Source of the DNA: Borborobacter arsenicus
Lineage (GTDB): Bacteria > Pseudomonadota > Alphaproteobacteria > Rhizobiales > Rhizobiaceae
Direction: 5' to 3'
Length of the DNA stretch: 64,000 nucleotides
Assembly: GCF_003934165.1 (NCBI RefSeq)
Contig: NZ_RKST01000007.1
Location: 186,001 to 250,000 of the forward strand
A model generated the notes under the pieces. That model saw nothing but the letters and a program-made list of their open reading frames with translations. It did no database searches and was not told the DNA's origin. Positions 22,549-52,161 of this stretch are shown here, in pieces. Each line of letters begins with the position of its first letter. Within the stretch, counting starts at the first letter, position 1. The position numbers were made by a program, and so were the translations under genes.

Positions 22549-22597
22549 CGAAAAACGATATGGTTTGATCTGTGGTTGGTCAACTTGGAAAAAGCGC

Positions 22598-24697: not shown

Positions 24698-24702
24698 CTA
24701 TA

Positions 24703-32965: not shown

Positions 32966-32978
32966 CGCGCCTGCCAGA

Positions 32979-33022: not shown

Positions 33023-33037
33023 GTAAAACAAAGGGAT

Positions 33038-35905: not shown

Positions 35906-35922
35906 AGTTCGGAATCCGATGA
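35906..35922. promoter_or_regulatory. Degenerate IclR operator before its own gene
   Basis: AGTTCGGAATCCGATGA agrees at 13 of 17 positions with the perfect operator AGTTCGGAATACGAACT seen three times downstream. The left half is intact and the right half-site is eroded. It lies 87 bases before the IclR start and would allow weak autoregulation. Confidence 0.5.
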
Positions 35923-35992
35923 CAATGGGGCCCGGCGACAGCATGGACCTCCGCATTGCGCCGCAGAACGAGCACGAGGCCACGAAAATATC

Positions 35993-36811
35993 ATGACCAC
36001 CATGAAGACCGTCAAACCGCAGGGGGACGAGAAGAGCATCGTCAAGTCGGTGTTCAAGGTGCTGGCGCTGCTCGAGGCGTTTTCGCCCGAGACGCCGGAA
36101 TTCAGCGTGGCCGAGCTTGCCGAGCGCACGGGCATCCATAAGGCCACCTGCAACCGGCTGATGACGACGATGGTGCAGGCGGGCTGGATGCAGCGGGTGG
36201 GCGGCAGTCGGTATGCGCCGACCGTGAAGCTGTTTCGCATCGGCTCGACCGCGATCGGCCGGCTCGACGTGCGCGAGGCAGCGCGCCCCTTGCTGCGCGG
36301 CCTGGCGGCCCGCTTCGGCGACACGAGCTATCTGATGGTGCCGGATGGACAGCGTTTCGTCTGCCTGGACCGAGTCGAGGGCGACCACCCGGTGAAGGTC
36401 ACGAATTTCGACATCGGGATGAGCCTGCCGTTTTCTTTCGCCGCGCCGCCGCTTGCGATCCTGGCGTACCGGGACGACCTGCTCGCCAAGATCGATCGCG
36501 ACAAGTTCCATGGACACGCAGTTCGGACCGACGCCGGCTTCGATAAACTCCAGCAGCGACTAGCGACCGTGCGCGAGCAGGGATACGTGCTCAGCCTGGA
36601 GGATTACCAGGCCGGGGTCGCGGCGGTCGGGGCGCCGGTGTTCGACAATAGTGGCGTCGCGATCGCGTCGATCAGCATCGACGGCGTCGTCACGCGGTTC
36701 GAGCCGCCGCGGCGCAGTGAGATCATCGATGCGGTCGTCGAGGCCGCCTCCAAGCTGTCCGAGCAGCTTGGCTATTCCGGCTCAGCCTCGTCCGTGAGAA
36801 ACTCCGGCTGA
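35993..36811 (+). CDS. IclR-family regulator of the hyu-DUF1989 regulon
   Basis: A 272-residue IclR regulator. The winged helix-turn-helix is FSVAELAERTGIHKATCNRLM. The effector domain contains LDRVEGDHPVKVTNFDIGMSLPF and YQAGVAAVGAPVFDN. It is the only regulator in the 36-51 kb block. A 17-base inverted repeat appears before the permease operon, the hyuA operon and the binding-protein gene, and in degenerate form before this gene, so it is the natural candidate to bind all four. The start could also be Met4 (36002). Confidence 0.87.
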   Translation: MTTMKTVKPQGDEKSIVKSVFKVLALLEAFSPETPEFSVAELAERTGIHKATCNRLMTTMVQAGWMQRVGGSRYAPTVKLFRIGSTAIGRLDVREAARPLLRGLAARFGDTSYLMVPDGQRFVCLDRVEGDHPVKVTNFDIGMSLPFSFAAPPLAILAYRDDLLAKIDRDKFHGHAVRTDAGFDKLQQRLATVREQGYVLSLEDYQAGVAAVGAPVFDNSGVAIASISIDGVVTRFEPPRRSEIIDAVVEAASKLSEQLGYSGSASSVRNSG

Positions 36812-37030
36812 TGGCGCAGGGCCGGGGCGAATGTCCTTGGCCGGCTCCGTACCCGGCGGGCGCGCGGGCTGATATCGTGCCGGGCAGCGCAGCGAGCGGT
36901 TCGCAGCCTGCAAATGCGCGTCGCGGATCCGATCTGCGACGAGGTGCCCGGACCAAGGGCCAGATCCTTAGCCGGTGCTGCGTCCACGGCGGTGTCGGCT
37001 TTTATCGATCCCGGCAAAGCCGATCGAATC
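36812..37030. other. Unassigned sequence before the ghost operon
   Basis: GC-rich sequence follows the IclR stop. No gene is recognised, and the open frames look like chance. The last part (from about 37010) begins to resemble the sequence upstream of hyuA at 42900. Confidence 0.35.
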
Positions 37031-37185
37031 CCCCTCGAACATGGGCACGAACAGGCATGGGCGGCTCCGTAATCGGCGCTCCTTCACCGATGGCTGCATC
37101 GCTTTCAACCCGGCGTGTGACGATCCTCGACACCGTGCTGGCACTGCTCGGATGGCCGCTGGCGGAGACGACGCGCTCGCTTTAG
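37031..37185 (+). pseudogene. Ghost of the hyuA...DUF1989 operon (5' end joined to 3' end)
   Basis: Bases 37031-37103 match the start of hyuA at 42925-43010: ATGGGCGGCTCCGTAATCGG here against ATGAGCGGCTACGTAATCGG there, followed by a TTCACCGAT match. From TCAACCCGG at about 37105 to the stop at 37185 the sequence switches to the 3' end of the last DUF1989 gene: VTILDTVLALLGWPLAE here, VTILDTGLAPLGWPLAE there. The similarity continues past the stop (GGATGGCGCGTGGAG). The roughly 6.5 kb between these two points in the intact operon is absent. Confidence 0.8.
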
Positions 37186-37264
37186 CGGCCGGGAGGATGG
37201 CGCGTGGAGCGGCCATGGTAACGGCCGGCGCGGCGCGTGCGGCACCGCTTCAGGGTTGTTTGCC

Positions 37265-37457
37265 GGTCCGGTGCCGGGAACCGCAAAACCGGGCGTAGAT
37301 CGGCCTTGACAGTGGCCATCGGATGGGAGAAGTTTTAGCACAATACGATCCAAAGTTCGGAATACGAACTATGGCCATACGGCCACGGCCTGGTCGAACG
37401 TGCGGCAAAAGTCCGCCGACGACGGGTTGGGAAACCTCAAACGAGGGAATGGGAGAG
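37265..37457 (+). repeat. Promoter-operator-leader cassette, copy 1
   Basis: It holds TTGACA (37306-37311) and the operator AGTTCGGAATACGAACT (37354-37370), then about 85 bases of conserved leader up to GGGAGAGATGG. Copies 2 and 3 lie at 42675-42862 and 49660-49826, with the same distance of 42-43 bases between TTGACA and operator. Confidence 0.85.
37354..37370. promoter_or_regulatory. Perfect IclR-type operator, copy 1
   Basis: AGTTCG-GAATA-CGAACT, a perfect 6-base inverted repeat with 5-base spacer, in front of the permease operon. Confidence 0.65.
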
Positions 37458-37523
37458 ATGGACAAAAAATTGGATAAACAGTCCGGTCCGTCTCGCGTTC
37501 AGGCGCGGGCCGACGCCCGATGA
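37458..37523 (+). CDS. Leader peptide left from a truncated binding-protein gene
   Basis: A 21-codon frame begins MDKKLDKQS, which matches MDRKLSKQS at the start of the binding protein at 49827. After about ten codons the similarity ends and the frame runs to a TGA that overlaps the permease ATG (ATGA). The gene that should encode the binding protein here has therefore been deleted, leaving its ribosome-binding site and first codons as a translated leader. Confidence 0.5.
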   Translation: MDKKLDKQSGPSRVQARADAR

Positions 37524-38446
37524 GCGCTTCCGCCACGTCGGAAAGGTTTGCATCGGCTCGCGGGCAAGGGCCCAGCGGTCGCGATGCCGGCTCCGGGTTC
37601 CGCCGATGGCGCGGGTGGCAGCGAGTGGCGCTGCTTGCGCCCGTGGGCCTTTTCCTCCTCGCGTTTTTTGCCTACCCGATGGCGAAGATACTCGCCTTGA
37701 GCTTCTCGAGCGAGGCCTCTGGCTTGTCCCTGGAGAACTACGTCTGGTTCTTCGAGACGAGCGTCAACATCAAGGTTCTTTTGCGCACCTTCACCACGGC
37801 AATGATCGTGACGCTCGTCTGCGTCCTGGTGGGGTATCCCTACGCTTACCTGATGACGGTGGTAGGCACGCGCTGGCGCGCCTTACTGTTGATTCTCGCG
37901 CTGATTCCGTTCTGGACCAGCCTGATGACGCGCAACCTGGCGTGGCTTGCGCTGCTGCAGCCCAGCAGCACCATTGCCACGATCACCCGGAAGCTCGGTT
38001 TCGGTGAGCTGCAGTTGCTGGGCACTGTCGCAGGCGTCGTGGTCGCGATGTCCCAGATACTCCTGCCGTTCATGGTCCTGCCGATGTACGCCACCCTGAG
38101 AAACATCGACCGACGACTTCTGGCAGCCGCCGAAGGGCTGGGCGCACGCCCCTCCGTCGCGTTCGTCCGGGTCTATCTGCCGCTGTCGGCGCCGGGCGTC
38201 GTGGCCGGGTCCCTCCTGGTCTTCGTCCTCTCACTGGGCTTCTATCTCACGCCGGCAATCATCGGCTCCCCGCAGAACAGCCTGCTCTCGCAGCTCATCG
38301 TCACCCAGGTCTCACGGGTTCTCAACTGGGGCCACGCGGGCGCGATGGCGATGGTCCTGCTCCTGGTCACGGTGGTCCTGATCTGGCTCGCCTCGCTGGC
38401 CACAAGGCGCAACGCGGCGCTGACGTCTTCCGGAGAGAGGTCATGA
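37520..38446 (+). CDS. ABC permease, polyamine (PotB) type
   Basis: A 308-residue permease of the spermidine/putrescine class. A cytoplasmic N-terminal tail of about 30 residues precedes the first span (LAPVGLFLLAFFAYP). The EAA loop AAEGLGARPSVAFVRVYLPLSAPG is clear. It starts within the leader-peptide stop (ATGA) and overlaps the next permease in the same way. The binding protein that normally heads such operons is not here but at 49827. Confidence 0.9.
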   Translation: MSASATSERFASARGQGPSGRDAGSGFRRWRGWQRVALLAPVGLFLLAFFAYPMAKILALSFSSEASGLSLENYVWFFETSVNIKVLLRTFTTAMIVTLVCVLVGYPYAYLMTVVGTRWRALLLILALIPFWTSLMTRNLAWLALLQPSSTIATITRKLGFGELQLLGTVAGVVVAMSQILLPFMVLPMYATLRNIDRRLLAAAEGLGARPSVAFVRVYLPLSAPGVVAGSLLVFVLSLGFYLTPAIIGSPQNSLLSQLIVTQVSRVLNWGHAGAMAMVLLLVTVVLIWLASLATRRNAALTSSGERS

Positions 38447-39270
38447 CCGTCGCGTGGAGCGCTCGGATACCGGTCATGCGCCGCGTGCGGCCCGGGCGGG
38501 TGGCGTTGATCGCATTCGTGGTCCTGGTCACGGTGTGGCTGCTGTTGCCGACGCTGGCCGTCATCCCGCTAAGCTTCGCCGGCGCGCCGACCTTCCGGTT
38601 CCCGCCGACGTCCTGGTCGACCGAGTGGTACGCCAATCTGGTCCATGACGGCAGATGGATTCGGGCCTTCGTCACGTCGCTCATCGTGGCGAGCCTGTCC
38701 GCCATTGTCGCGACAGTGCTCGGAACGGCCGCGGCGCTCGGCATGCGGGGCCGGTTTATCGGCCGGCAGGTCATGTTTGTGCTCCTGCTCGCTCCCATGG
38801 TGGTTCCGGTCGTGATCTTCGCCGTGGCGGTGTACGCGGTATTCCTGCCCTGGGGGCTGACGGGCACGCTTCCCGGCTTCGTCGCCGCGCATTGCGTGCT
38901 GGGTATCCCCTTCGTATTCGTGACGGTGGCGGCAGGACTGGAGGGTATGGACCCGCGCCTGACCGACGCGGCGGCAAGCCTCGGGGCGTCTCCAATCAAG
39001 GCGTTTCGCGTCATCACGCTGCCGCTTATTGCGCCGTCAATGCTGACCGGAGCCCTCTTTGCATTCATGGCCTCGTTCGACGAGACGGTCGTGTCCATCT
39101 TCCTCGTCACCCCTGCCAGGCGCACTCTCCCTGTCACGATGTATGAGAGCATGACACGCGAGATTGACCCGACGGTGGCCGCGGCAGCGACCGTCATTTT
39201 CATGGGCACGACCTTGCTGCTGATTATCGGCGTTCTCGTTCAGGCCAGGAGACGGACCTCACATGGATAG
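38443..39270 (+). CDS. ABC permease, polyamine (PotC) type
   Basis: A 275-residue second permease of the importer, with the EAA loop DAAASLGASPIKAFRVITLPLIAPS and about six spans. It overlaps the upstream permease by 4 bases and the ATPase gene by 8 bases. It completes the channel. Confidence 0.9.
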   Translation: MTVAWSARIPVMRRVRPGRVALIAFVVLVTVWLLLPTLAVIPLSFAGAPTFRFPPTSWSTEWYANLVHDGRWIRAFVTSLIVASLSAIVATVLGTAAALGMRGRFIGRQVMFVLLLAPMVVPVVIFAVAVYAVFLPWGLTGTLPGFVAAHCVLGIPFVFVTVAAGLEGMDPRLTDAAASLGASPIKAFRVITLPLIAPSMLTGALFAFMASFDETVVSIFLVTPARRTLPVTMYESMTREIDPTVAAAATVIFMGTTLLLIIGVLVQARRRTSHG

Positions 39271-40402
39271 CAGACTTCACATGGGTATCCGTAGCGGCGT
39301 GGCCCTCGAGCTGGAGGCGCTTCACAAGCGATATGGCGACTATGTTGCGGTCGAGAGCGTCGATCTGCGCGCCGATCCGGGCGAGTTCCTCACTCTGCTG
39401 GGTCCGAGCGGGTCGGGCAAGACCACGACGCTGAACATGATAGCTGGCTTCGTGACCCCGAGCTCGGGGCGCATCCAGCTCGACGGCGGCAAGATCGATC
39501 ATCTGCCGCCACACAAGCGCAATATCGGGATGGTGTTCCAGCATTATGCGCTGTTTCCGCATATGACTGCCTTCGAAAACGTCGCGTTTCCTCTCAAGCA
39601 GCGCAAGTGTGGCGGCGCGGAGATCAGGACGAGGGTTCTGGAGGCGCTCGAACTCGTGGGGCTCGGCGATCGCGCGCACAGCTACCCGCGTCAGCTCTCC
39701 GGCGGGCAGCAGCAGCGCGTCGCGCTGGCCCGCGCGATCGTGTTCCGGCCTTCGCTGCTGCTCATGGACGAGCCGCTGGGAGCGCTGGACAGGCAGCTGC
39801 GCGAGCATATGCAGATGGAGATCAAGCGCATCCATGTCGAGCTCGGCATCACCTTCGTCTACGTCACGCATGACCAGGAGGAGGCCCTGACCATGTCCGA
39901 CCGGGTTGCGATCTTCAATAACGGTCGCATCGAGCAGGTCGGTACCGCGTCGGACGTCTATGATCGTCCCAGAACGCTGTTTGCAGCCGAGTTCCTGGGC
40001 GAGTCCAACAGCCTGTCGGTGGCCCGCACATGTCAGCCCGGCATTGCGGTCGTGGCGGGGCTGGATGTTCCCGTCCGGCTGCCGGAGGATACGCAGATGC
40101 CGGCCGGTGATGGCGCAACCGTGGTCATCCGGCCCGAGCGGCTCCGGGCCATGCCTGCGGGTCTTGAGCGCTCGCCTGGGACGAACGCGCTGCGCGGCGT
40201 TGTCCAGCGCGTCGTCTATCTGGGATCGGCGCGCCGGGTGGACGTCGAGGTCTCGCCCTGGATCCATCTTTCAGTGCGCGAACAGTCCGGCATGTGGTCC
40301 CCGGTGCAGAAGGGCGATGCCGTCGACATAGGCTGGCACCCAGGGGACTCCGTATTGCTCGAGCAGCGGACGGCGCCGGCGATCGTGACGGGCGCAGCAT
40401 GA
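39263..40402 (+). CDS. ABC ATPase, polyamine (PotA) type
   Basis: A 379-residue PotA-like ATPase with Walker [22 protein letters not shown] (Q loop), signature LSGGQQQRV, Walker [13 protein letters not shown] and switch [10 protein letters not shown], followed by a C-terminal TOBE-type regulatory domain from about residue 280. It energises the importer. The stop overlaps the next start (ATGA). Confidence 0.92.
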
Positions 40403-40836
40403 GCGGCAAGCAGGTAGTCACTACAACGTTTTTCGGTCGCCCCAAGGAGTATTCGCCATGGTCGGCGGGGATCGTGATCCCGCCCGGCTACGGCATCCTC
40501 TTCACCCCGGGCATGACCGCTCGTGACGCCGAGGGCAACACCGTCGCTCCGGGCGACATCCGGGGCCAGACGCGTCGGGTCCTGGAGCAGCTTGCGGCGG
40601 TGCTGGGCGAGGTCGGGGCCACGCTCGACGACGTGGTGAAGATGACGGTCTTCCTCCAGGACATGGATGACGTCCATGCGGTCCAGGAGATTCGCCGGCA
40701 GTTCTGGGCGACCAATCCGCCGGTTTCATCGACCGTCGAGGTCAGCCGGCTGGTCACCGAGGAGGTGCGGATCGAGATCGAGGCGGTGGCGGCCATCGCG
40801 CCGTCCAACCTGGCCCCGACCGCGGCGGTTGTCTGA
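40399..40836 (+). CDS. RidA-family protein (first)
   Basis: A 145-residue RidA/YjgF-family protein with TPGMTARDAEGNTVAPGDIRGQTR and VLGEVGATLDDVVKMTVFLQDM. True RidA enzymes hydrolyse reactive imines to ketones and ammonia using a conserved Arg; more distant members (Rid1-7) act in catabolic routes, for example on aminoacrylate or ureido compounds. Its position in a transport/imine-reductase operon suggests an imine or enamine intermediate. It overlaps the genes on both sides by 4 and 1 bases. Confidence 0.85.
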   Translation: MSGKQVVTTTFFGRPKEYSPWSAGIVIPPGYGILFTPGMTARDAEGNTVAPGDIRGQTRRVLEQLAAVLGEVGATLDDVVKMTVFLQDMDDVHAVQEIRRQFWATNPPVSSTVEVSRLVTEEVRIEIEAVAAIAPSNLAPTAAVV

Positions 40837-41801
40837 TGTTGCTGCTGCGTGAGGCGGATGTGCGCGCGGTGCTGACGATGCCCGACGCCGTACGCTGCGT
40901 CGAGGAGGCGTTCGGGCGCCAAGGCATGGGAGAGATGCGCGGCCAGCCGCGGACCCGTGTGCGCTTCCCGGCCGGGACGCTCAATGTCCTGCCGGCCGTC
41001 GATCTGACGCTCGGCGTGGCCGGCGTGAAAACGTACATCGCCGTGGGCGGGGTTGCCCGCTTCGTGGTGCTGCTGTTCGACCTCGACGGCGGCGCGTTGC
41101 TGGCGATGATCGAGGCCGACTATCTCGGCATGATCCGCACCGGCGCGGCCTCCGGCGTGGCGACCAGGCATCTGGCGGCCCCTGGTCCGCACACGCTGGC
41201 CATAATCGGTACCGGCTGGCAGGGACGCGGGCAGGTGGAAGGAGTGCTCAGCGCATGTGCGGTGAGCGAGATACGCGTCTTCAGCCGCCGGCCCGAGCAG
41301 CGTGCGGCCTTCGCCCGCCAAGTCGAGGATGAGTTCGCCGTGGCCTGCCTAGCGTGCGCCTCGGCGCGGGACGCGGTCGCAGGGGCAACCGTAATCTGCA
41401 CTGCCACCAACGCGACGGTGCCCGTTCTGGAGGCCGCCGATGTCGCCGACGGCGCGCATATCAACGCTGCCGGCTCGAACTCGCTGTTGCGCCGCGAGAT
41501 CGATGACGGCCTGGTGCACCGAGCGGGCACCATCGTCGTCGACTCGCGCGTGCAGGCCCGCGCCGAAGCCGGCGATCTGCTCGCTGCGCATCAGCGGGGA
41601 TGGCTTGACGTCGATTCGCTCCCCGAACTCGGTGACATCGTCGCCGGGCGGCGGCAGGGGCGAAGGAACGGCGCAGAAATCACCATCTTCGAATCGCTCG
41701 GCCTCGGCGCCCAGGACGTCGTCGTCGCCGCCCACGCATATCGGCAGGCGCGCGTCGCCGGCCTCGGGAACGAGATCCCGTTCGTCGGCACGGCGCAATG
41801 A
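40836..41801 (+). CDS. Ornithine cyclodeaminase/mu-crystallin family protein
   Basis: A 321-residue member of the OCD/mu-crystallin family. The N-terminal part has FPAGTLNVLPAVD, and the Rossmann motif is AIIGTGWQGRGQVEGV. The family includes ornithine cyclodeaminase, ketimine reductase and alanine or lysine-type dehydrogenases. Together with two RidA proteins this points to a pathway with cyclic or open-chain imines. The start overlaps the RidA stop by one base (TGATG). Confidence 0.87.
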   Translation: MLLLREADVRAVLTMPDAVRCVEEAFGRQGMGEMRGQPRTRVRFPAGTLNVLPAVDLTLGVAGVKTYIAVGGVARFVVLLFDLDGGALLAMIEADYLGMIRTGAASGVATRHLAAPGPHTLAIIGTGWQGRGQVEGVLSACAVSEIRVFSRRPEQRAAFARQVEDEFAVACLACASARDAVAGATVICTATNATVPVLEAADVADGAHINAAGSNSLLRREIDDGLVHRAGTIVVDSRVQARAEAGDLLAAHQRGWLDVDSLPELGDIVAGRRQGRRNGAEITIFESLGLGAQDVVVAAHAYRQARVAGLGNEIPFVGTAQ

Positions 41802-41879
41802 TGCACGGCGCGGGCTCGCATCACGGATATTGCGGGCACTTTGTCGCGCTCGCCTGATGAACAACAAGGAGATAGCGAC

Positions 41880-42275
41880 ATGGGTGGCATCAGGACCTCG
41901 GGCGGAAATCGGTGGGAGCTGGAGACAGGATATTCGCGCGCGGTGCGCGTCGGCCCTCTTATCGAGGTCAGCTCCACATGCGCCGCCCAGCCAGACGGGA
42001 CGATCGTCCACCTTGGCAATGTGGCTGGCCAGGCGCGTCACATCATCGGCATCATCGACGGGGCCCTGCGCGAGCTTGGGGCCACGCTGGCGGACGTCGT
42101 TCGCATATCATACTATATGCGCGATCAGCAGGACTGGGTCGCCGTGGGGGAGGTGCACCGGGAGTTCTTCGCCGAGACACGTCCGGCGCTCGACTACATC
42201 TTCACCGCCGGATGGCCCCTGAAGGGCGTCGAGATCGAGATCGTCTGCACCGCGTATGTCGAGGATGCGCGATGA
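41880..42275 (+). CDS. RidA-family protein (second)
   Basis: A 131-residue RidA-family protein with EVSSTCAAQPDGTIVHLGNVAGQAR, GATLADVVRISYYMRDQQDW and ALDYIFTAGWPLKGVEIEI. It is only distantly similar to the first RidA in the operon, so it is not a recent duplicate. A well-placed AAGGAG precedes ATG 41880. It is the last gene before the second cassette. Confidence 0.86.
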   Translation: MGGIRTSGGNRWELETGYSRAVRVGPLIEVSSTCAAQPDGTIVHLGNVAGQARHIIGIIDGALRELGATLADVVRISYYMRDQQDWVAVGEVHREFFAETRPALDYIFTAGWPLKGVEIEIVCTAYVEDAR

Positions 42276-42674
42276 CCCGACGTGCGAGCAGGGGCGGCAG
42301 CCGGGCTCTCGGCCAGTCGGCGGCCCCTCGACGCGGCCGCCTGCCCGGTTCCCGAAGGGGCGCGCAGAAGCCGACGACACAGGCTGTCGCCCGATAATCG
42401 ATGGCGCCGCTGACGGCAATGGCGGCCTAAAGGGTTAGTACCGTCACCGCGGCCGGCGAAGAGCCGATCAAGGCAGCTTGCCGGTGCGGCTACCATGCAA
42501 AACACCATGGCTTGCTCGAAAACTGTCCTGACCGGCCAGTGCCTTAGGAGAGGACATCCTCGCGGCGGCAACGGCCCGATCCGAGCTCACTTTGCGTTGC
42601 TTCAACAGGTCAACTGCCGCTGCTTCAGCAAGGCCTCCAACTCCACCTTCAACGCGCCGAGCGGGCGTGCTGCC
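42276..42674. other. Stretch without recognisable gene
   Basis: About 400 bases of GC-rich sequence between the RidA gene and cassette copy 2. No protein family was recognised in any frame. Confidence 0.35.
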
Positions 42675-42862
42675 GGGCTCTGCGAAGTCGCAAAACTCGG
42701 CGTAGAGCCCTTGACAGAGACCAGCGGATGGGAGAAGATTTTAACGCAATACGAACTTGAGTTCGGAATACGAACTATAGGCGTGCGGCCGCCATCTCGT
42801 CGAACGCGCGGCAAGCTCGCCGACGACGGGTTGGGAGATCTCAAATGAAGGAGTGGGTAGAG
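42675..42862 (+). repeat. Promoter-operator-leader cassette, copy 2
   Basis: TTGACA at 42711-42716, operator at 42760-42776, then the conserved leader ending near GGGTAGAGG. Similarity with copy 1 extends upstream over CGCAAAACTCGGCGTAGA. The distal leader has a one-base insertion relative to copies 1 and 3. Confidence 0.8.
42752..42776. promoter_or_regulatory. IclR-type operator, copy 2, with extra half-site
   Basis: The perfect repeat AGTTCG-GAATA-CGAACT (42760-42776) is preceded by another half-site, CGAACT at 42752-42757, two bases away. The hyu operon promoter therefore has three half-sites, unlike the other two copies. Confidence 0.6.
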
Positions 42863-42955
42863 GTGGGACACAGAATTGATGACACGGTCCGGGGTTTGAC
42901 AGCCACGGCGAAGCCAGGCGCCCCCCTCTCGAGCATGGGGCTCGAACAGGCATGA
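42845..42955 (+). CDS. Possible leader peptide before hyuA
   Basis: A 36-codon frame (MKEWVEVGHRIDDTVRG...) arises from the binding-protein leader of the cassette, out of the original frame. It ends in a TGA overlapping the hyuA ATG (ATGA), exactly as the leader does before the permease gene. It may only couple translation. Confidence 0.3.
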   Translation: MKEWVEVGHRIDDTVRGLTATAKPGAPLSSMGLEQA

Positions 42956-45015
42956 GCGGCTACGTAATCGGCGTTGATGTGGGCGGCACTTTCACCGATC
43001 TCGTCTGCGTCGGCGAGGCGGGGGATGTGCTGACCGCGAAGGTGCCCTCCACGCCCGCCGATCAGGGCATCGGCGTGCTGAGCGGCATCGCCAATCTGGC
43101 CGACAGGGCCGCCGTGTCGGTCGAGGATCTGCTGGCCAGAACCAAGATGATCGTCCACGGCACGACGGTCGCCACCAACACGATGATCGAGTGGAGCGGC
43201 GCGCACACATATCTGCTGACCACGCGCGGCTTCCGGGACCTCATCGACATCCGCCGCAACTACAAGGAGGCGGCCTTCGACATCCGGCTGAAGGCACCTT
43301 ACCCGATCGTGCCACGCCGCAGGCGCATTCCGATCACCGAGCGCATCACCGAAACCGGGGCCGTCCTCACTCCGCTTGCTGAGGAAGAGGTCCGTGCGGC
43401 GGCTCGCCGGCTCGCCGATGAGGGCGCGCAGGCCGTTGCGATCTGCTTTCTGTTTTCGTTTCTCGCCCCGGAGCACGAGCTGCGTGCGCGGGAAATCATT
43501 CACGAAGTCTTGCCGTCGATCCACGTCTCGTTGTCGCACGAGGTGCTGCCAAAGATTCGCGAGTTCGAGCGCCTGTCGACGACGATCGTTGACGCATACG
43601 TGACCCCCAAGCTGCGTGGCTATCTCACCAATCTCGAGCGTACCTTGGCTGAGCGCGGCTACGCCGGCGACTTCTTCATCATGCGTTCCAACGGCGGCGT
43701 GGTCGATGTGGGGCGCGCGGCCGAATCGGGCGTGCAGCTCGTGGCGTCGGGGCCTGCCGGCGGGGTCGTCGCGGCGTCCAGCATCGGCGCTGCGGTGAGT
43801 GACCGCAACCTGCTGACGATCGACATGGGCGGGACCAGCGCGGACGTCTCACTAATCCGCGATGGCACGCCGTCGGTCAGCATGGATTCCTGGTTCTCGC
43901 GCTACCGTGTCGCTGTTCCGCTCGTTGATGTCACGAGCGTGGGCGCCGGCGGCGGCTCGATCGCGTGGATCGACGATGGTGGGGCGCTGCGGATCGGTCC
44001 AGCGAGCGCCGGCTCCTATCCGGGGCCGGCCTGCTACGGGCGTGGGGGCACCGCCGCAACGGTGACCGACGCGAACCTCATACTGGGCTACATAGGCGCC
44101 GACAGCTTCCTCGGCGGTGCGATGGCCCTTGATGTCGAGGGTGCCCGCCGGGCCTTGCAAGCCGGCATCGCGGACCCACTCGGCGTCGGCGTCGAAGAGG
44201 CTGCGGCCGCCATTGTGCGGATCGTCAACCACAACATGGCCAACGCGCTGCGCGTCATCTCGATCGAGAAGGGCTACGACGTCCGCGACTTCTCGCTGAT
44301 GGCCTTCGGCGGCGGCGGGCCGCTGCACGCAGCGGCACTCGTGCAGGAGCTGCGCGTGCGCCGGATACTCGTCCCGCGCGGACATGCATCGGTGCTGTGC
44401 GCCCTGGGTGACGTGCTTGCCGACATCCGCGAGAGCCGAAGCCGTGGCTACTATGCGCGCTCGGAGACGGTTGACCTGCCTGCGCTGGCACAGGCAGTCA
44501 CCACGATGGTCGATGAGGCCGATGCGCTGATGGGCGAGCAGGCACGCAATCTGCGGCGTGTGGTCGAGTGTGCCTTGGAGATGCGCTACAAGGGGCAGAC
44601 GCATGAGGTGGCGGTGCCGATCGGGAGCGGCCTGGAGCCGACGCCTGAGCGGTGGGCCGAAGTGCTCGCCGACTTCGACAGGCTGCACGCGCAGCGCTTC
44701 TCCTATAGCCGGCCGGGAGCCGAGATCGAGATCGTCGGCCTGCAGGTCGACCGCTTCGCGCTCCGGGCGAAGCCGGAGATGAACGGGCTTGGGCGCACCT
44801 CGCAGGCAACCGCGACCAGCGAGCGTCCGGTGCACTTCCCGACCGCCGCCGGCTACGTGCCGACCCCGATCTACTCGGGCGTCGAGCTTGGCCTCGGCTT
44901 CACCGCGAGGGGGCCCCTGGTCATCGAGGAGGCCAACACCTCCGTGGTGGTCATGCCGGGCCAGAGGGTCTCGCTCGTGGCAGGCAACGTCTACATAATC
45001 GAGGATGACCGATGA
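42952..45015 (+). CDS. hyuA: Hydantoinase/oxoprolinase A subunit (second)
   Basis: A 687-residue HyuA-type ATPase subunit with IGVDVGGTFTDLVCVG, VHGTTVATNTMIEWSG, VASGPAGGVVAASSIG and TIDMGGTSADVSLI. The family couples ATP hydrolysis to ring opening of hydantoins and oxoproline or to carboxylation of ketones. First gene of a five-gene operon in which every junction is an ATGA overlap. It is followed by two B-type proteins, a layout closer to acetone/acetophenone carboxylases and three-subunit hydantoinases than to the simple A-B pair at 22598. Confidence 0.9.
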   Translation: MSGYVIGVDVGGTFTDLVCVGEAGDVLTAKVPSTPADQGIGVLSGIANLADRAAVSVEDLLARTKMIVHGTTVATNTMIEWSGAHTYLLTTRGFRDLIDIRRNYKEAAFDIRLKAPYPIVPRRRRIPITERITETGAVLTPLAEEEVRAAARRLADEGAQAVAICFLFSFLAPEHELRAREIIHEVLPSIHVSLSHEVLPKIREFERLSTTIVDAYVTPKLRGYLTNLERTLAERGYAGDFFIMRSNGGVVDVGRAAESGVQLVASGPAGGVVAASSIGAAVSDRNLLTIDMGGTSADVSLIRDGTPSVSMDSWFSRYRVAVPLVDVTSVGAGGGSIAWIDDGGALRIGPASAGSYPGPACYGRGGTAATVTDANLILGYIGADSFLGGAMALDVEGARRALQAGIADPLGVGVEEAAAAIVRIVNHNMANALRVISIEKGYDVRDFSLMAFGGGGPLHAAALVQELRVRRILVPRGHASVLCALGDVLADIRESRSRGYYARSETVDLPALAQAVTTMVDEADALMGEQARNLRRVVECALEMRYKGQTHEVAVPIGSGLEPTPERWAEVLADFDRLHAQRFSYSRPGAEIEIVGLQVDRFALRAKPEMNGLGRTSQATATSERPVHFPTAAGYVPTPIYSGVELGLGFTARGPLVIEEANTSVVVMPGQRVSLVAGNVYIIEDDR

Positions 45016-46190
45016 GTATCATGATGCCGTCGACCCAAGTCGCCGCGAGCCCGCAGATGGGGGAGCTGGTGCGCATACTCCGCCATGCCGATGCGAAGTT
45101 GCGGCGATCGTCGCCCTCCACGGCCCTCGGCGACGACCGCCACGCGGTCGTGGGGCTGTTCGACGAGACGGGCGCGGTGGTGGCGCTCAGCCGCCGGGCC
45201 TGGCTCGCGTCGCTTGCTGCCACGGTGCGCAGCGTCCTGGACGCTTTCGGCGGCACGCTGCCAGTTGGCGAACTGGCGGTGAGCAACGACCCATATGCAG
45301 GTGGCACCCATGTCACCGACTTCACCGTCGTGCGCCCTCTCGCCGGCGGAACGGGCTATCTGGCGGCGCGCTTCCACACCCTCGACATCGGGGGTGAACA
45401 ACTGGGCAGTATCACGCCACGGGCCGCCGAAATCTGGGAGGAAGGTGTTCTGGTGCCGCCGCTGCGCCTTGCGCGGTCCGGGCAAGCCGATTTCGACGCC
45501 GCCACGATGCTGGACTTCAACAGCCGCTTGCCCGATGTGCTGCGGGGAGATCTGAAGGCGGCTGTCAGAACGCTCGACGAGCTCGACGTCGCGCTTGCGA
45601 CTGCGGGCCTGGGTGGCCGCGACGCGCACGCCGCGCTGCTGGAGGAAGCCCGCGCCCGCATGCGTGATGAGCTGGCCGAACTGCAGGACGGAAGCTGGTC
45701 GACCACCGGCCGCATCCATCACTGTTGCACCGGGGTGGACGTGCCCTTCGAACTGAAGCTGACCGTGGCTGCCGGGCAGCTCCGCTTCGCGTTCCCGGTT
45801 GAGCCGGCGGGCGTCAAGGCATTCGTCAACAGCTCGGCGGGCACAACGGCTTCGGCGCTGCTGGCCCCGCTCGCCGCGGGTCTCCCTGATGCGGCGTGCA
45901 ACGCCGTGCTGCTCGACAGGGTCACGATCGCCACGACACCCGGATCGTTGTTCCACGCGCAGGCGCCGCTGCCCACGGGATATGCGCCATACATCACTGC
46001 CGGCGAGCTGGCACGCCGGGCAGCCGAGCTGGCCGGGCAAGCCGGACTGCGCGTTGCGCCCTACGAGCACTGGTTCGCATTGCCGGCGCGCCCGTTCTCG
46101 CTGCCTGGGTGCGATGATCCCGGCTGTCCGTTCCCTAAGGTGGGGGGTGACACCCACAAGACCCGCTATGCCCCAGGAGCACGTTCATGA
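45012..46190 (+). CDS. Short, divergent HyuB-like protein
   Basis: A 392-residue protein with HyuB features only in its first half (AVSNDPYAGGTHVTDFTVVRPL, NSSAGTTASALLAPL). HyuB proteins usually have more than 500 residues; here the C-terminal half is missing and replaced by a tail with GCDDPGCPFPKVGG, a possible CxxxxC metal or structural motif. It overlaps hyuA and the next, full-length hyuB by 4 bases each. It is perhaps an accessory subunit that together with the next product forms the B part of the complex. It is not simply a truncated gene, because the frame is clean and coupled at both ends. Confidence 0.75.
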   Translation: MSIMMPSTQVAASPQMGELVRILRHADAKLRRSSPSTALGDDRHAVVGLFDETGAVVALSRRAWLASLAATVRSVLDAFGGTLPVGELAVSNDPYAGGTHVTDFTVVRPLAGGTGYLAARFHTLDIGGEQLGSITPRAAEIWEEGVLVPPLRLARSGQADFDAATMLDFNSRLPDVLRGDLKAAVRTLDELDVALATAGLGGRDAHAALLEEARARMRDELAELQDGSWSTTGRIHHCCTGVDVPFELKLTVAAGQLRFAFPVEPAGVKAFVNSSAGTTASALLAPLAAGLPDAACNAVLLDRVTIATTPGSLFHAQAPLPTGYAPYITAGELARRAAELAGQAGLRVAPYEHWFALPARPFSLPGCDDPGCPFPKVGGDTHKTRYAPGARS

Positions 46191-47959
46191 GCGAAGTCGA
46201 TCCAATCACGGCGCAAGTCGTCCGTGAGTACCTCGAGTCCGTCTCCAAGGAGATGAGCAGCGTCGTCGAGCGCACGGCCGTGCATCCATTGTTCAACGAG
46301 TGCCACGACTATTCGACCGGCGTCTTTCATCGCCGCGATTCGGTATCGCTGGTGGCGCGTGCGACCGCCATCCCCGTGCATATCTTCGCGTCGTTGAAGT
46401 CGGTCGAGGCGATGCTCGATTATTTCGGCGACGGGCTGGCCGACGGCGACGTGGTGATCCTCAACGACCCGTTTTTCGGCGGTACCCACAATGCCGACTG
46501 GACGGTGATGAAGCCGATCTTCCTGGAGGGGGGCGGCATGCTCTGCCCGGCGGTCCGCGCCCACATGGCAGATTCCGGCGGACCGGTGGCCGGCAACTAC
46601 AACCCCGACGCGCGTGAGGTCTGGCAGGAAGCGTTCCGGATTCCGCCGGTGAAGATCGTCGAGGCCGGCAGGCTGCGAGAGGACGTGCGCGCCACGATCC
46701 TCGCCAATACCCGCATCCCGGAAACCCTCGATGGGGACCTGCGCGCGATGATGGCCGCCGTCGAGATCGGCGAACAACGGATCCGCGAGCTGTGCGAGCG
46801 CTACGGCGACCGTGTCGTGGAGGCCTGCGTCGATGAGGCGCTCAACTACTCCGAGCGCCGCTTCCGATCCGAGATCGCCAGTTGGCCCAAGGGGCGCACC
46901 ATAGGCGTCTGGCATCTCGATCACGACTCGGCGGGCACCCATGATATAAGGATTCAGGCCACGCTGGAGGTCTCGGAGTCCGGACTCAAGGTCGACTTCG
47001 AGGGCAGCTCGCCGCAGACCCCCGGATTTGTCAACAGCACCGAGGGCAACACTGCTTCCTGGGTTTACACGGCGCTCTGCGCCGCGCTCAGCGATGACAT
47101 CCCGATAAATTCCGGACTGTTTCGGGTGGTGGACATCCAGACCCCGCTCGGATCGGTGGTCAACCCGGTCCCGCCCGCTGCGACGATGTCTGCGACCGGG
47201 CGGGTCGGGAGCGAGGTCGGCCTGAGCGTGATGAAGGCGCTCGAGCAAATTGTTCCAGAGCGCAGCGGCAATGTCAGCTATGGCGGCTCGCTGTGCACGA
47301 CCTACGGCGTCGACCCCCGCTACGACGAGTTCTTCGTGACGATCGAGTATGGCAGCAACCTCGTCTCGGCCAGCGCTGCGTTCGGCACCGATGGCTGGGG
47401 CGGTTGGCCGGCACCGTTCTCCACGTTGGTGTTCAACACCATCGAGATGCTCGAGATACAGTTCCCGTACCGCTATCACCGCTACGAGTATACGACCGAC
47501 ACCGCGGCGCCGGGACGATGGCGCGGCGTGCCCGCCTTCGCGATGGAGCGCGAGGCGGTCACGGAGCAATATGTCAACGCCATCGTTGTTGGCGTCCGGC
47601 ACGTTGCGCCCGGATGGGCCGGCGGTGAACCAGGGATCCCCAACGAGATCACGCTCGCCACCGGCAGTCCCGACGAGCGAGCGGTCGTAGAAACCGTGAC
47701 GCGAGCCCCGCTGAAGGCGGGACAAGTGATGACCTCGTTGCGCTCCGGCGGCGGTGGCTTCGGCGACCCACTCGAGCGCGATCCCGATGCGGTGCGCGCC
47801 GACGTGCTAGACGAGATCTACACGCGCGAGGCTGCCAAGCGGGCGTTCGCCGTGGTGATCGATCCGGCCACGATGGACATCGACACCGAAGCGACGCGCG
47901 CCTTGCGGGTCGAGCGACGAAACACGTCCCAGACTGCAATCATGGAGGCTACGACATGA
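46187..47959 (+). CDS. hyuB: Hydantoinase/oxoprolinase B subunit (second)
   Basis: A 590-residue HyuB-type subunit with VILNDPFFGGTHNADWTVMKP, FVNSTEGNTASWVYTALCAA and RWRGVPAFAMEREAVTEQY, of normal family length. It partners the HyuA of this operon. The start overlaps the short B-like gene and the stop overlaps the first DUF1989 gene (ATGA at both ends), so all subunits would be made in fixed ratio. Confidence 0.88.
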   Translation: MSEVDPITAQVVREYLESVSKEMSSVVERTAVHPLFNECHDYSTGVFHRRDSVSLVARATAIPVHIFASLKSVEAMLDYFGDGLADGDVVILNDPFFGGTHNADWTVMKPIFLEGGGMLCPAVRAHMADSGGPVAGNYNPDAREVWQEAFRIPPVKIVEAGRLREDVRATILANTRIPETLDGDLRAMMAAVEIGEQRIRELCERYGDRVVEACVDEALNYSERRFRSEIASWPKGRTIGVWHLDHDSAGTHDIRIQATLEVSESGLKVDFEGSSPQTPGFVNSTEGNTASWVYTALCAALSDDIPINSGLFRVVDIQTPLGSVVNPVPPAATMSATGRVGSEVGLSVMKALEQIVPERSGNVSYGGSLCTTYGVDPRYDEFFVTIEYGSNLVSASAAFGTDGWGGWPAPFSTLVFNTIEMLEIQFPYRYHRYEYTTDTAAPGRWRGVPAFAMEREAVTEQYVNAIVVGVRHVAPGWAGGEPGIPNEITLATGSPDERAVVETVTRAPLKAGQVMTSLRSGGGGFGDPLERDPDAVRADVLDEIYTREAAKRAFAVVIDPATMDIDTEATRALRVERRNTSQTAIMEATT

Positions 47960-48837
47960 CATCGCAACCAATAGAGGCGTTGCTGAAGACGTCGCCGCAT
48001 CTGTGCCCGACCCCGATCGATCTCGGCTTCTACGAGGCGGCCGCCGCCAAGCTGTCTTCCGCCGTGATGAGGGTGGAGCATCGCCTGGCGGATTTCGGCG
48101 GCTTGGCGCTGGACGTGCCCAAGGGCGCGACGGTCTCGCTCACCCTGCTCGAGGGCGCGCAGATCGTCAACGCCTTCGCCTACAACCCGGCCGACCCCGA
48201 CGAGCGCATGTGGCAGCAGTCGGTGCTGCGCGAAGGCATATTTCTGCGCCGGTATTCGCGGGTCTGGGGAACCATGGCCCGCTACCGACCACTGATGACG
48301 GTGCTTGACGATACGGTCTGCGCCGATCCGCATCTTCCGCGAGCCCAGCACCATCCCTACTTCGGCGGGTCGGGTACCCCGGCCGACTGGCGTGCGGCAG
48401 GCGGCGCGGAAGGCATTGCGTCGACGTGGGAACAGTTCGCAGGCCTGCTCACGCAACGGGGTGTCCCGGCCCACATTCTGGGCGAGAATCTTTGCCTCTT
48501 CCAGCGGTCTATCGTCGACTCCGATCCGATGCGGGTCGAGATTCTGCCGTCGAACGCGGTGGCGGGCGACCGCATCACCCTGTTTTGCGAGATTGACCTG
48601 TGTCTGCTGCTCGGGCTCAGCCCGTTCATCGACGGCGCACGGGCGGCGGCGGAGCCGGGCGTGCCGCAGCCGCGCGCGGTGCATGTATCGATCACCGAAC
48701 CGATCGTCGAGCCGCTTGCATGGCCCTATCCCGAGATACGCTATCCGGACCTCTCCCTGTACCTCGACAACTCAGGCACGCGGTCGACTGCGGTCGAGAC
48801 GACGCGTGGCCTAGATTACAAGGTGACCCCCCGATGA
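47956..48837 (+). CDS. DUF1989 (urea carboxylase-associated) family protein, first
   Basis: A 293-residue DUF1989 protein, recognised from its pairing and the NLCLFQRSIVDSDPMRVEILPSNAVAGD segment that aligns with the family's NLFMNVPV...PGDYVEF core. DUF1989 proteins occur as pairs; one such pair, CgdA/CgdB, is carboxyguanidine deiminase in guanidine degradation. It is more divergent than the next gene. Coupled to both neighbours by ATGA overlaps. Confidence 0.75.
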   Translation: MTSQPIEALLKTSPHLCPTPIDLGFYEAAAAKLSSAVMRVEHRLADFGGLALDVPKGATVSLTLLEGAQIVNAFAYNPADPDERMWQQSVLREGIFLRRYSRVWGTMARYRPLMTVLDDTVCADPHLPRAQHHPYFGGSGTPADWRAAGGAEGIASTWEQFAGLLTQRGVPAHILGENLCLFQRSIVDSDPMRVEILPSNAVAGDRITLFCEIDLCLLLGLSPFIDGARAAAEPGVPQPRAVHVSITEPIVEPLAWPYPEIRYPDLSLYLDNSGTRSTAVETTRGLDYKVTPR

Positions 48838-49622
48838 CTGACAAACGTTTGCCGCGAGCCGTCTATCCGTTCCCGCGCGAGCACTACGAGAGGCTCGTGG
48901 CGAACCGCGAGCGCTTTCGCATCGTCTCCGAGCATTTGCTCGAGGCGTCGGGGCACGGGTTCCGCGTCGAGGCGGGACAGGCGTTCCGCTTCACCTTGGC
49001 CACCGGGCCCCAGGTGCTAGACGTCTGCATGATGAGCGCCGACGATCCGCACGAGCATCTCTTTCCCGGCACCCAGATGGCGATCGAGGGCGGGCGCATC
49101 AGTCGCTTCACGCGCCTGTGGGGCACCCCGCCGAGGAGCCGGCCGCTGGCCACCTGCATCGCCGACAGCGTTCGAGGAGTGCCCTCGCCGCGCGGGACGG
49201 GCGAGCACTTTCCCCACGGCGCGCACTGCAACCCGCATCTGTGGCAGCTCTACACTGGCAAGCACAGCCGCCCGTGCTACGACAATTTGCGCTACGGGCT
49301 TGCGATGCTGGGGCTGGACCAGCGCTATATCCACGACAACCTGAACCTCTTCATGAAGGGCGGCTATGACCCGGTGACGGGCGTGAGCATTGCCGAAGAG
49401 AGCGATTCCAGGACCGGGGACTATCTCGAATTCTACGCGGAGACGGCCCTTTACGTGGCCATCTCGCTGTGCCCGGCCGAGGCGGGCTCCGAGGACCTGC
49501 GGGAATCGTGGAGCGAGGGTTCCCAGGACACGATCGCCGTCAACCCGGTGCGGGTGACGATCCTCGACACCGGGTTGGCGCCGCTCGGATGGCCGCTGGC
49601 GGAGGCGGCGGCCTCGCATTAG
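48834..49622 (+). CDS. DUF1989 (urea carboxylase-associated) family protein, second
   Basis: A 262-residue DUF1989 protein with FRVEAGQAFRFTLATGPQVLDVCMM, GAHCNPHLWQLYTGKHSRPCYDNL and NLNLFMKGGYDP...GDYLEFYAET, the family's central motifs with conserved Cys and His residues. With the preceding protein it likely forms a heteromeric deiminase-like enzyme of the CgdAB kind. Its last ~27 codons and 3' flank are duplicated at 37105-37230. Last gene of the operon; the binding-protein cassette follows. Confidence 0.83.
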   Translation: MTDKRLPRAVYPFPREHYERLVANRERFRIVSEHLLEASGHGFRVEAGQAFRFTLATGPQVLDVCMMSADDPHEHLFPGTQMAIEGGRISRFTRLWGTPPRSRPLATCIADSVRGVPSPRGTGEHFPHGAHCNPHLWQLYTGKHSRPCYDNLRYGLAMLGLDQRYIHDNLNLFMKGGYDPVTGVSIAEESDSRTGDYLEFYAETALYVAISLCPAEAGSEDLRESWSEGSQDTIAVNPVRVTILDTGLAPLGWPLAEAAASH

Positions 49623-49659
49623 CCGGCGGGGGATGGCGCGTGGAGTGGCCATGGTTTCG

Positions 49660-49826
49660 GCCGGCGTGAATCGGCCTTGACAGCGGCCACCGGATGGGAG
49701 AAATTTTAACGCAATACGATTTAAAGTTCGGAATACGAACTATGGCCATGCGGCCACAGTCTCGTCGAACGTGCGGCAAAGCTCGCCGACGACGGGTTGG
49801 CAGCCTCAAAAGAGGGAATGGGAGAG
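49660..49826 (+). repeat. Promoter-operator-leader cassette, copy 3
   Basis: TTGACA at 49677-49682 and operator at 49725-49741, followed by the leader ending GGGAGAG before the binding-protein ATG. Here the leader still joins the full binding-protein gene, so this copy is probably closest to the original arrangement. Confidence 0.85.
49725..49741. promoter_or_regulatory. Perfect IclR-type operator, copy 3
   Basis: AGTTCG-GAATA-CGAACT, identical to copies 1 and 2, in front of the binding-protein gene. Confidence 0.65.
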
Positions 49827-50975
49827 ATGGACAGAAAATTGAGTAAACAGTCCTGCAGTTCCGACAAAGGTGAGCCGCACGTGAGCCGGCGTGACGCCAT
49901 TAAGGGCGGCACGATGTTCGCAGCGGCGCTGATGACGGGGTATGGAGGGGGCGTAATTGCCACTGCATCGGCCGCTACGGCGGCGAACGCCGACCCTTAT
50001 CCCTTTCCGGACCTAAGCGGAAAAACGATCACTTTCGTGGACTATGGTGGCGCCGGAGCCCGCGCCATGGAAGAAGCCTACACCCGACCCTTCGCGGAGG
50101 GTACGAAGGTGACGATCCTTCACGATGCCCCCTTCGAACCCGCCAAGGTCAAGGCGCAGGTCGAGGCAAATCAGGTCACATGGGACGTGGTCAATGGTGA
50201 CCCGCTGACATCGATCAGCTTCTGTCACGACGGCCTGCTGGAGCCGCTGGACCCGAGCCTCCTCGAAGGGATCGACCCCAAATACCACAGCGGGACCTGT
50301 GTGGTACCGGTTGACACCTATGCCTCGGTCCTCGCCTACGACTCCAGCAAGTTCGCCGATAACCCTCCCGCCAGCTGGGCCGACTACTTCGACACCAAGA
50401 AGTATCCCGGCAAGCGCGGCATGTGGACGGCCATCTATCTCAACCAGCTGGAGATCGCGCTGCTCGGCGACGGGGTGGCGCCCGCGGATCTCTACCCGCT
50501 GGACATCGACCGCGCCATCGCCAAGCTCGACAGCATCAAGGGCGACATCGTCTTCTATGATTCATTGTCCCAGTCCCAGGAACAGATGGTCGCGCAGTCG
50601 GTCGTGATGTCGAACGCTGCCGCCCAGCGCGCACGGGCCGCCACCGACAATGGTGCCCCGTTCAAACCTGTCTGGAACCAGGCGGTCCTGGCCTGGGAGT
50701 GCTACGGAATCCCGAAGGGATCGCCCAACAAGGAAGCGGCGGTCGAGCTGCTGAAATACATGGCCACGCCCGAGGCGCAGTCCAGGGTCGCCGGACTGCT
50801 GGGAATGGGGTCGACCTCGAAGAACCCAGTGCCCGTTGCGAATCTGTCCGCCAACCAGCAGCTCTGGTTGCCATCGACAGAGAACACCAAGGACGCCGTC
50901 ACGATGAACCCGGAGTGGTGGGCAACGCATTACGACGAGGCCGTCGCCAAGTTCACGGCCTGGATCGCCGGCTGA
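49827..50975 (+). CDS. ABC substrate-binding protein, polyamine (PotD) type, Tat-exported
   Basis: About 382 residues. The N-terminus carries VSRRDAIKGG followed by a hydrophobic stretch and ATASAATAANA, a twin-arginine signal peptide. The mature part (ITFVDYGGAGARAMEEAY, NQVTWDVVNGDPL, SWADYFDTKKYPGKRGMW) is of the spermidine/putrescine-binding class. It must belong to the permeases and ATPase at 37520-40402, which lack a binding protein and keep only a fossil of this gene's first codons. ATG 49827 is preferred; ATG 49818 in frame is possible. Confidence 0.9.
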   Translation: MDRKLSKQSCSSDKGEPHVSRRDAIKGGTMFAAALMTGYGGGVIATASAATAANADPYPFPDLSGKTITFVDYGGAGARAMEEAYTRPFAEGTKVTILHDAPFEPAKVKAQVEANQVTWDVVNGDPLTSISFCHDGLLEPLDPSLLEGIDPKYHSGTCVVPVDTYASVLAYDSSKFADNPPASWADYFDTKKYPGKRGMWTAIYLNQLEIALLGDGVAPADLYPLDIDRAIAKLDSIKGDIVFYDSLSQSQEQMVAQSVVMSNAAAQRARAATDNGAPFKPVWNQAVLAWECYGIPKGSPNKEAAVELLKYMATPEAQSRVAGLLGMGSTSKNPVPVANLSANQQLWLPSTENTKDAVTMNPEWWATHYDEAVAKFTAWIAG

Positions 50976-51014
50976 GCTTACGGCCCCGCCACGTCCGTGG
51001 CGGGGCCGTAAGCT
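50975..51014 (+). terminator. Strong perfect hairpin after the binding-protein gene
   Basis: Arms of 18 bases (50975-50992 and 50997-51014; core CTTACGGCCCCGCCAC) pair perfectly around the loop GTCC and begin at the last base of the stop codon. No T tract follows. It very likely ends the transcript or protects its 3' end. Confidence 0.7.
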
Positions 51015-51129
51015 GCGGGACGCGGGTGCCTGAACAGTTGCGTCCGTGGGGGCCCCGAAATCCTGGACAGCGGTGCCATCGTTTGCGACACACCGGATTC
51101 CGTGTTGCGGATCGGTTTTGGAACCACGC

Positions 51130-51588: not shown

Positions 51589-52161
51589 ATGGGACAGCTG
51601 AGCATGGCGACGAGGAAAGAACTGACGGCGGCGGTTTCGGAGCGATATCGTGCTTCGACGCGAGCGGAGAAGGCGAGAATTTTGGATGAGTTCGTCGTCA
51701 TCACGGGCTTTCACCACAAGCACGCGACGCGGCTGCTGTGGCGCCATGAAAGAGCCCCTACAGGTCGGCGAGCGCGAGCGGAACGCAATGCGCTCATATT
51801 GTTATGGGAGGCGTCTGACCGGGTTTGCGGGAAGCAGCTGAAGGCGTTGCTGCTCGTCCTTGTCGAGGCGATGGAAAGGCACGGTCATTTTAACCTCGCG
51901 CCCGAGATTCGTGGCAAATTGCTGGCGATGAGCGCGGCCACGATCGACAGGACGCTGGGACCGATCCGAGAAGGATTGGGACGTTCCCGACGACGGCCCG
52001 CGGCGCACGCCCTGCGACGGAGCATTCCCATTAGAACGTCGGCGGATTGGAACGATCCGGCGCCAGGCTTCGTTGAGGCGGACCTCGTCGCCCATAGCGG
52101 CCCTTCGGCTCGCGGCAGCTTCATCCAAACGCTCGTGCTCACCGACATCGCGACCGGCTGA
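51589..52161 (+). pseudogene. Truncated DDE/integrase-type transposase
   Basis: 190 codons of a transposase: an N-terminal helical part (YRASTRAEKARILDEFVVITG...HATRLLW) and the beginning of the integrase catalytic core, FVEADLVAHSG with the first catalytic Asp, then LVLTDIATG directly followed by TGA, where a Trp is expected. The rest of the catalytic domain is absent downstream. It is a dead element abutting the ISNCY fragment. Confidence 0.72.

Follow-up and report, generated by a model that had tools for sequence, protein, structure and literature searches.

In a 64-kb stretch of Borborobacter arsenicus contig NZ_RKST01000007.1, hereafter the window, to whose positions all coordinates refer, three gene units are preceded by closely related control regions, or cassettes: P1 stands 5' of the permease genes, P2 5' of hyuA, and P3 5' of the gene for an ABC solute-binding protein (SBP). 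U2 is the gene preceding SBP, and a further control region, P0, precedes the regulator gene iclR. As judged from sequence, P1 is probably what internal deletions have left of a duplicated segment that reached from hyuA to SBP, rather than a lone promoter copied to a new place. We consider it rather likely that the locus as a whole reflects such a duplication with deletions giving rise to P1, that P2 is a further copy, and that an IclR-family regulator controls P0 to P3.

An earlier reading of this DNA, the original prediction, had proposed that a promoter-operator-leader cassette of about 170-200 bases occurs at three sites, and self-blastn of the window bears this out. About 200 bp are common to P1, P2 and P3 at 79-88% identity (E 1e-62 to 8e-40), far more than the 17-base operator, and the three pairings are the strongest repeat pairs in the window. 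P1 and P3 agree at 88% over 193 columns (37292-37484 and 49663-49853, E 1e-62), P2 and P3 at 83% over 183 columns (42709-42890 and 49675-49853, E 4e-43), and P1 and P2 at 79% over 208 columns (37282-37486 and 42689-42892, E 8e-40). Sharing restricted to the 17-base operator, the outcome named beforehand as fatal to the prediction, did not occur: in a three-way alignment along P1 37292-37486, 144 of 198 columns are invariant, leader and start codons included. The predicted TTGACA followed by a perfect inverted repeat is likewise present in each copy, with TTGACA 43 nt (P1), 44 nt (P2) and 43 nt (P3) before GTTCGGAAT and with perfect 6-bp arms in the operator, AGTTCG-GAATA-CGAACT. P1 and P2 are identical at 60 of 69 positions from TTGACA to the end of the operator and at 66 of 83 in the leader. 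The leader runs, as proposed, into the binding-protein gene and covers its first nine codons (ATG 49827); similarity to SBP stops at one common base, 49853, in both P1 and P2. At the 5' side the proposed extent of the cassette holds from TTGACA on, but just upstream (37262-37303) the sharing is weak, P1 agreeing with P2 in 24 of 42 columns and with P3 in 15 of 42. Note that GTCCGGT direct repeats were noticed by eye near the two ends of P1.

The similarity of P1 and P3 extends further, into the end of U2, and this feature, like a piece of the hyuA start at 37012-37078 and the P0 site, was absent from the original prediction. The segment 37098-37230 matches 49533-49666 (blastn, 85%, E 2e-35), a stretch made up of the 3' terminus of U2, stop codon included, and the DNA between U2 and SBP, and the tail of the U2 protein is detected before P1 by tblastn (E 7e-7). 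Directly 5' of this fossil, 37012-37078 matches the start of hyuA at 42906-42973 (blastn, 81%, E 2e-9); in local alignment 36990-37101 scores 88 against 42885-43012, the maximum of 200 shuffles being 47. The hyuA start and the last U2 codons are joined in frame, so that a single frame, 37057-37185, begins at the hyuA ATG and continues into the tail of U2. Relative to U2, the last 24 codons of the fossil tail (stop included) carry six nonsynonymous and three synonymous codon changes, a small count that would fit lost constraint. Identity between P1 and P3 amounts to 63/73 in the U2 tail, 39/44 in the intergenic DNA, 62/69 from TTGACA to the operator end, 74/83 in the leader and 24/27 in the SBP codons, and U2 end, intergenic DNA, promoter region and the nine SBP codons have thus all diverged by 10-14%. 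Because dead and live DNA have changed to a like degree, one duplication is indicated, and for the same reason the similarity of P1 and P3 is not in itself proof of selection on the cassette. By the yardstick we adopted, whether copied DNA includes remnants of flanking genes, P1 has such remnants and P2 shows none. The dead ends of hyuA and U2 in front of P1 make it most likely that the duplicated DNA contained genes and was afterwards reduced by deletion; the proposal that regulatory DNA had been copied to new genes therefore stands as far as duplicated DNA is concerned, but copying alone does not fit P1. For relics of SBP past the P1 and P2 junctions and of the permease genes past SBP, no local alignment exceeded the shuffle maximum; tblastn for relics detected the U2 tail before P1 and otherwise gave nothing but weak matches (E 0.017 or weaker), and 36812-37010 aligned to the DNA before P2 with a score of 32, under the 95% level of the shuffles. 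The features of the locus are as follows.

35869-35941, + strand: P0, diverged control region 5' of iclR (local alignment, box spacing), with TTGACA at 35869 and the diverged site 35895-35919, ATCCGA (35895) - GTTCG (35907) - ATCCGA (35914)
35993-36811, + strand: iclR, IclR-family regulator, predicted operator binder (Pfam IclR_C and HTH_IclR above cut-off)
36998-37101, + strand: fossil of the hyuA upstream region and hyuA start, ATG 37057 (blastn, local alignment)
37057-37185, + strand: open frame of 42 codons plus stop, hyuA start fused to U2 tail (translation)
37098-37230, + strand: fossil of the U2 3' end, stop codon 37183-37185, and U2-SBP intergenic DNA (blastn, tblastn)
37282-37486, + strand: P1 cassette with TTGACA 37306, box A 37343, operator 37354-37370 and leader; its 3' part holds nine SBP-like codons, ATG 37458
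37458-37523, + strand: short frame of 21 codons plus stop, SBP-like start, ATGA overlap with permA, ATG 37520 (sequence, translation)
37520-42275, + strand: transporter operon (Pfam BPD_transp_1 twice, ABC_tran, TOBE_2, OCD_Mu_crystall, and Ribonuc_L-PSP in both RidA-like genes): permA 37520-38446, permB 38443-39270, ATPase 39263-40402, RidA-like within 40294-40836, OCD 40836-41801, RidA-like 41841-42275
42689-42892, + strand: P2 cassette with TTGACA 42711, box A 42749, operator 42760-42776 and leader
42863-42955, + strand: short frame from GTG, 30 codons plus stop, ATGA overlap with hyuA, ATG 42952
42952-49622, + strand: enzyme operon (Pfam): hyuA 42952-45015, hyuB1 45012-46190, hyuB2 46187-47959, U1 47956-48837, U2 48834-49622 (scanned as the longer frame 48600-49622); U1 and U2 are two DUF1989 proteins
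49663-49853, + strand: P3 cassette with TTGACA 49677, box A 49714, operator 49725-49741, leader and the nine first SBP codons
49827-50975, + strand: SBP, ABC solute-binding protein, ATG 49827 (Pfam SBP_bac_8, translation)

The locus would be a small catabolic regulon whose gene groups probably take up and degrade a compound. In the order of events that we infer, a block reaching from hyuA through U2 and the control region P to at least the start of SBP would have been duplicated locally. The copy adjoining iclR would then have lost the hyuA-U2 part (almost all of hyuA, the entire hyuB1, hyuB2 and U1, and most of U2) as well as the body of SBP, so that the fossil, P1 and the first SBP codons remained and would now drive the permease operon. 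The second copy would have retained the enzymes plus SBP behind P3, and P2 would be an additional copy of the cassette fused to hyuA. As for the original gene order, SBP lies directly 5' of permA in 8 of 10 permease loci (L125, L127-L133), follows the ATPase gene in L134 and is unclear in L126; the ten comprise all 7 matches outside this genome and 3 of 532 plasmid records. Given this arrangement, a natural reading is that SBP was lost from the place between P and permA, and the arrangement suggests an ancestor with SBP between P and permA, P1 with its nine SBP codons being the leftover expected from an SBP deletion. The ancestral order was also sought from relatives of HyuA, a route that was rejected, as U1 and U2 are seen in none of the 22 loci (11 + 6 + 5, each 8.6-22 kb). 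Among them, only in L056 is HyuA accompanied by SBP, permeases and ATPase; in L101, matches of IclR-, ATPase- and PermB-like type lie near HyuA.

At the DNA level the cassette appears peculiar to this locus in the collections searched. In the draft genome (5.4 Mb, 107 contigs), strong matches to 37098-37520 are confined to the locus, the 7 other places listed having E 0.04 or weaker. Apart from the three copies here, the P3 cassette gave only matches of 20-31 bases, in 8 of the 150 other genomes of a set of 151 (E 0.0016 or weaker), and 37000-37560 had no match at E 0.001 among 72,556 plasmid records. In 17 loci from relatives (10 permease loci and 7 of the 22 HyuA loci), only short matches to cassette-like DNA were found (E 0.002 or weaker). 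HyuA itself, searched in 299 genomes of a draw from the phylum, was found at E 1e-160 in this genome only, and a scan of genome contigs with U2 returned 19 stretches fitting a pattern, none encoding a relative.

The operator offers a clue to the regulator. GTNCG-N5-6-CGNAC is described as the operator class of PcaR, PobR, CatR, HmgR, PcaU and others in the account of PMC8222616, which also describes three-box sites for the IclR family. P1, P2 and P3 contain this core as GTTCG-GAATA-CGAAC, and a third box, ATACGA, lies 12 nt 5' of GTTCG in all three; this box, box A, is a complete CGAAC half-site only in P2. The operator thus fits the PcaR/PobR-type motif of the IclR family plus a third half-site. 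A regulator of this kind is encoded nearby by iclR; its best NCBIfam match, PcaR/PcaU/PobR (TIGR02431), reaches 116 bits, below the subfamily cut-off of 284.75. P0 has its three boxes, ATCCGA-GTTCG-ATCCGA, at a spacing identical to that in P1 to P3, with the right arm of its core (GTTCG-GAATC-CGATG) degenerate and with TTGACA 32 nt before GTTCG as compared with 43-44 in P1 to P3, about one helical turn less. As evidenced by local alignment, P0 is similar to P3 (score 50) and P1 (46), the maxima of 1000 shuffles being 37 and 40; its blastn match is weak (E 0.035-0.13). Genome-wide, AAGTTCGGAATACGAACTAT with at most three mismatches occurs only at P1, P2 and P3, and exact GTTCGGAATNCGA occurs five times, at P0 to P3 and at one other site that appears to lie within a gene. 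The three-box pattern with at most three mismatches was found in this genome only, at three places, and in none of 140 others among the 141 searched. Most likely, then, the nearby IclR controls all four units by binding the three-box operator at P0 to P3, and P0 is probably a fourth, diverged site of the same geometry that places iclR itself in the regulon. The original prediction that three units had been wired into one regulon thus finds probable support, but its count was probably too low.

In the mode of action that we infer, IclR would hold the promoters off until a ligand, perhaps the substrate or product of HyuA/HyuB, releases it. Taking TTGACA as the -35 element would place the operator directly behind the transcription start, a position that favours repression relieved by a ligand. 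A promoter scan of 35850-51100 gave no sigma-70 consensus at TTGACA and 3 sites, all on the opposite strand, with 1.7 expected; activation by IclR is therefore possible as well.

In each cassette the start codon is preceded by a purine-rich stretch, and the short frames in P1 and P2 end in ATGA at the starts of permA and hyuA. As these two genes have no obvious ribosome-binding sequence of their own by eye, coupled translation of permA and hyuA appears likely. That the conserved leader might act as an RNA element or leader-peptide attenuator seems very unlikely to us. The copies have about 85 nt of leader in common, P1 and P3 are each predicted to form a small CCTC-GAGG hairpin, and one of 35 predicted pairs shows a two-sided change; but the hairpin is not predicted in P2, Rfam at gathering thresholds gave no match in 30000-58000, the three leaders, folded as 100-nt pieces, have z-scores of -1.12, 0.86 and -0.24, and the covariation term is -0.1, for three sequences that offer little data. 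An RNA element or riboswitch in the leader was rejected as a candidate on these grounds: no Rfam match, weak folding and nearly no covariation.

Several observations weigh against the duplication-deletion reading or the control by IclR that forms part of it. P2 is unexplained by one duplication, and local alignment found neither a U2 relic before it nor an SBP relic after it above shuffles. The comparisons turned up no relative in which the gene order is intermediate, so that for the ancestral order one has to rely on permease loci that are distant (PermA 40-54%, SBP 30-39%). The 59 nt 5' of hyuA are identical at only 42 of 58 positions between fossil and live copy, below the other blocks, and the 19-base invariant run at the operator is unexceptional within the aligned region (permutation p 0.09). 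The alignment of P0 with P2 is not significant (score 30, reached by 31 of 1000 shuffles); GTTCGGAATNCGA with one mismatch occurs at 18 + 11 sites on the two strands as compared with 9 + 11 for the control, which makes weak matches to it meaningless; and no consensus -10 box follows TTGACA.

Part of the difficulty lies with P2, where alone the sharing is limited to the cassette and which by itself resembles a bare copy some 200 bp long. About 60 bp 5' of TTGACA, present in P1 and weakly matched in P2, are missing from P3 in the alignments, which suggests that P2 was not copied from present-day P3. P2 ceases to resemble P1 at 42892, and the DNA in common with the hyuA fossil begins at about 42885-42906, a position at which P2 may have been joined to hyuA by short-homology recombination. 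Such a bare copy, together with the common end of SBP similarity at 49853 in P1 and P2, is what one would expect if a free-standing cassette of about 200 bp, with promoter, operator, leader and start codons, had been copied to each gene as originally predicted. We regard this as improbable for the set, since P1 and P3 share 135 further aligned columns upstream, the coding end of U2 included, the hyuA fossil precedes P1, and strong genome matches are confined to this locus. A related possibility, to which we give limited credence, is a portable module (promoter, three-box IclR operator, leader and ATGA-coupled start) spread within the locus by duplication and deletion; its source would be the control region of the regulator or of SBP, and its four copies would have joined regulator, enzymes, transporter and SBP into one regulon.

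If the copies were old and had been kept alike by gene conversion, the duplication could not be dated from identity. Short neighbouring copies on the same strand could recombine, but the dead U2-tail DNA and the cassette are similarly diverged (86-90% identity) and P2 has not been homogenised with P1 and P3 (79-83%), so that we judge this explanation quite implausible. Operators of one regulator do converge, as is general knowledge, and independent origins with the operator alone in common might thus be considered; for P1 to P3 the alignment refutes this, with 144 of 198 columns invariant through leader and start codons, and the chance that it applies to them is negligible. For P0 alone an independent origin of the operator is possible. 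The duplication of a hyuA-to-SBP segment followed by deletions remains our preferred reading of P1.

The substrate of the enzymes can only be guessed to be a lactam or hydantoin-like compound. The nearest NCBIfam model to HyuA is caprolactamase alpha (633 bits) and HyuB2 scores 367 bits against caprolactamase beta; both scores are under the cut-off of 1000, and the two proteins are therefore not members of these families. The hyuB1 gene (45012-46190) encodes a short HyuB-like protein ahead of the full HyuB2, and HyuA followed by two consecutive HyuB-like stretches is also seen in L097 and L107-L111. A second hydantoinase-type pair, 22565-26670, lies 18 kb upstream (hyuA-like 22565-24697, hyuB-like 24496-26670), with a cyclase-like gene, an NMT1-type binding protein and an ABC ATPase 3' of it. 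The best relatives of SBP, in one genome of the same family and in plasmids of Streptomyces, Rhodococcus and Mesorhizobium, are only 39-40% identical, and permA is 52-53% identical to two genomes of the same genus; the two genes possibly differ in origin, or SBP has changed faster. At the SBP stop codon lies a 40-bp near-perfect palindrome (50975-51014), probably a terminator, and after SBP an ISNCY-family transposase fragment, 51589-52161, probably truncated, which has no Pfam match and is 91-92% identical to the best rhizobial-plasmid copies. Elsewhere in the window, two copies of a 51-bp repeat that are 90% identical and look palindromic lie near open reading frame ends at 12766-12816 and 32977-33027, and presumably resemble a rhizobial dispersed repeat; a further pair, 281-447 and 62803-62968, near the two ends of the window, is 74% identical over about 168 columns.

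How an existing regulator captures a new operon is usually inferred; at this locus a likely route for one unit can be read from fossil gene ends, namely duplication of a segment and subsequent loss, with the promoter left attached to a new gene. No account of this locus was found in the open-licence literature with general search terms. That promoters are captured through tandem duplication or deletion is already established, as described in PMC11111574, and as there, a gene would gain a neighbouring promoter through local duplication and deletion. The present case, by contrast, is natural and old and has readable fossils, and the units joined to one regulator belong to an apparent single pathway. 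Its interest thus lies less in promoter capture, which is already known, than in a legible natural instance whose fossil makes the route readable. Mobile promoters are dispersed copies of a promoter alone, and their propagation was reportedly treated by Matus-Garcia in 2012. They resemble the present case in that the same promoter sequence stands before unrelated genes; however, the copies here are confined to 12.6 kb rather than dispersed, and the DNA shared by P1 and P3 holds gene ends. P2 alone would fit a promoter-only copy. Mobile promoters are cited in PMC8049555.

With four sites that differ in age and in geometry, all for a single predicted regulator, the locus provides a test of how much change an IclR operator tolerates. 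As in the IclR-family systems with GTNCG-N5-6-CGNAC operators, there is a GTTCG-N5-CGAAC core with an extra half-site outside it, and a nearby IclR-type regulator gene is preceded by a site. Proximity of the regulator gene to its targets and autoregulation are common in the IclR family. The locus differs from systems of the PcaR class in its targets, a hydantoinase-type enzyme and a polyamine-type ABC transporter, and in a box A that is complete as CGAAC in P2 only.

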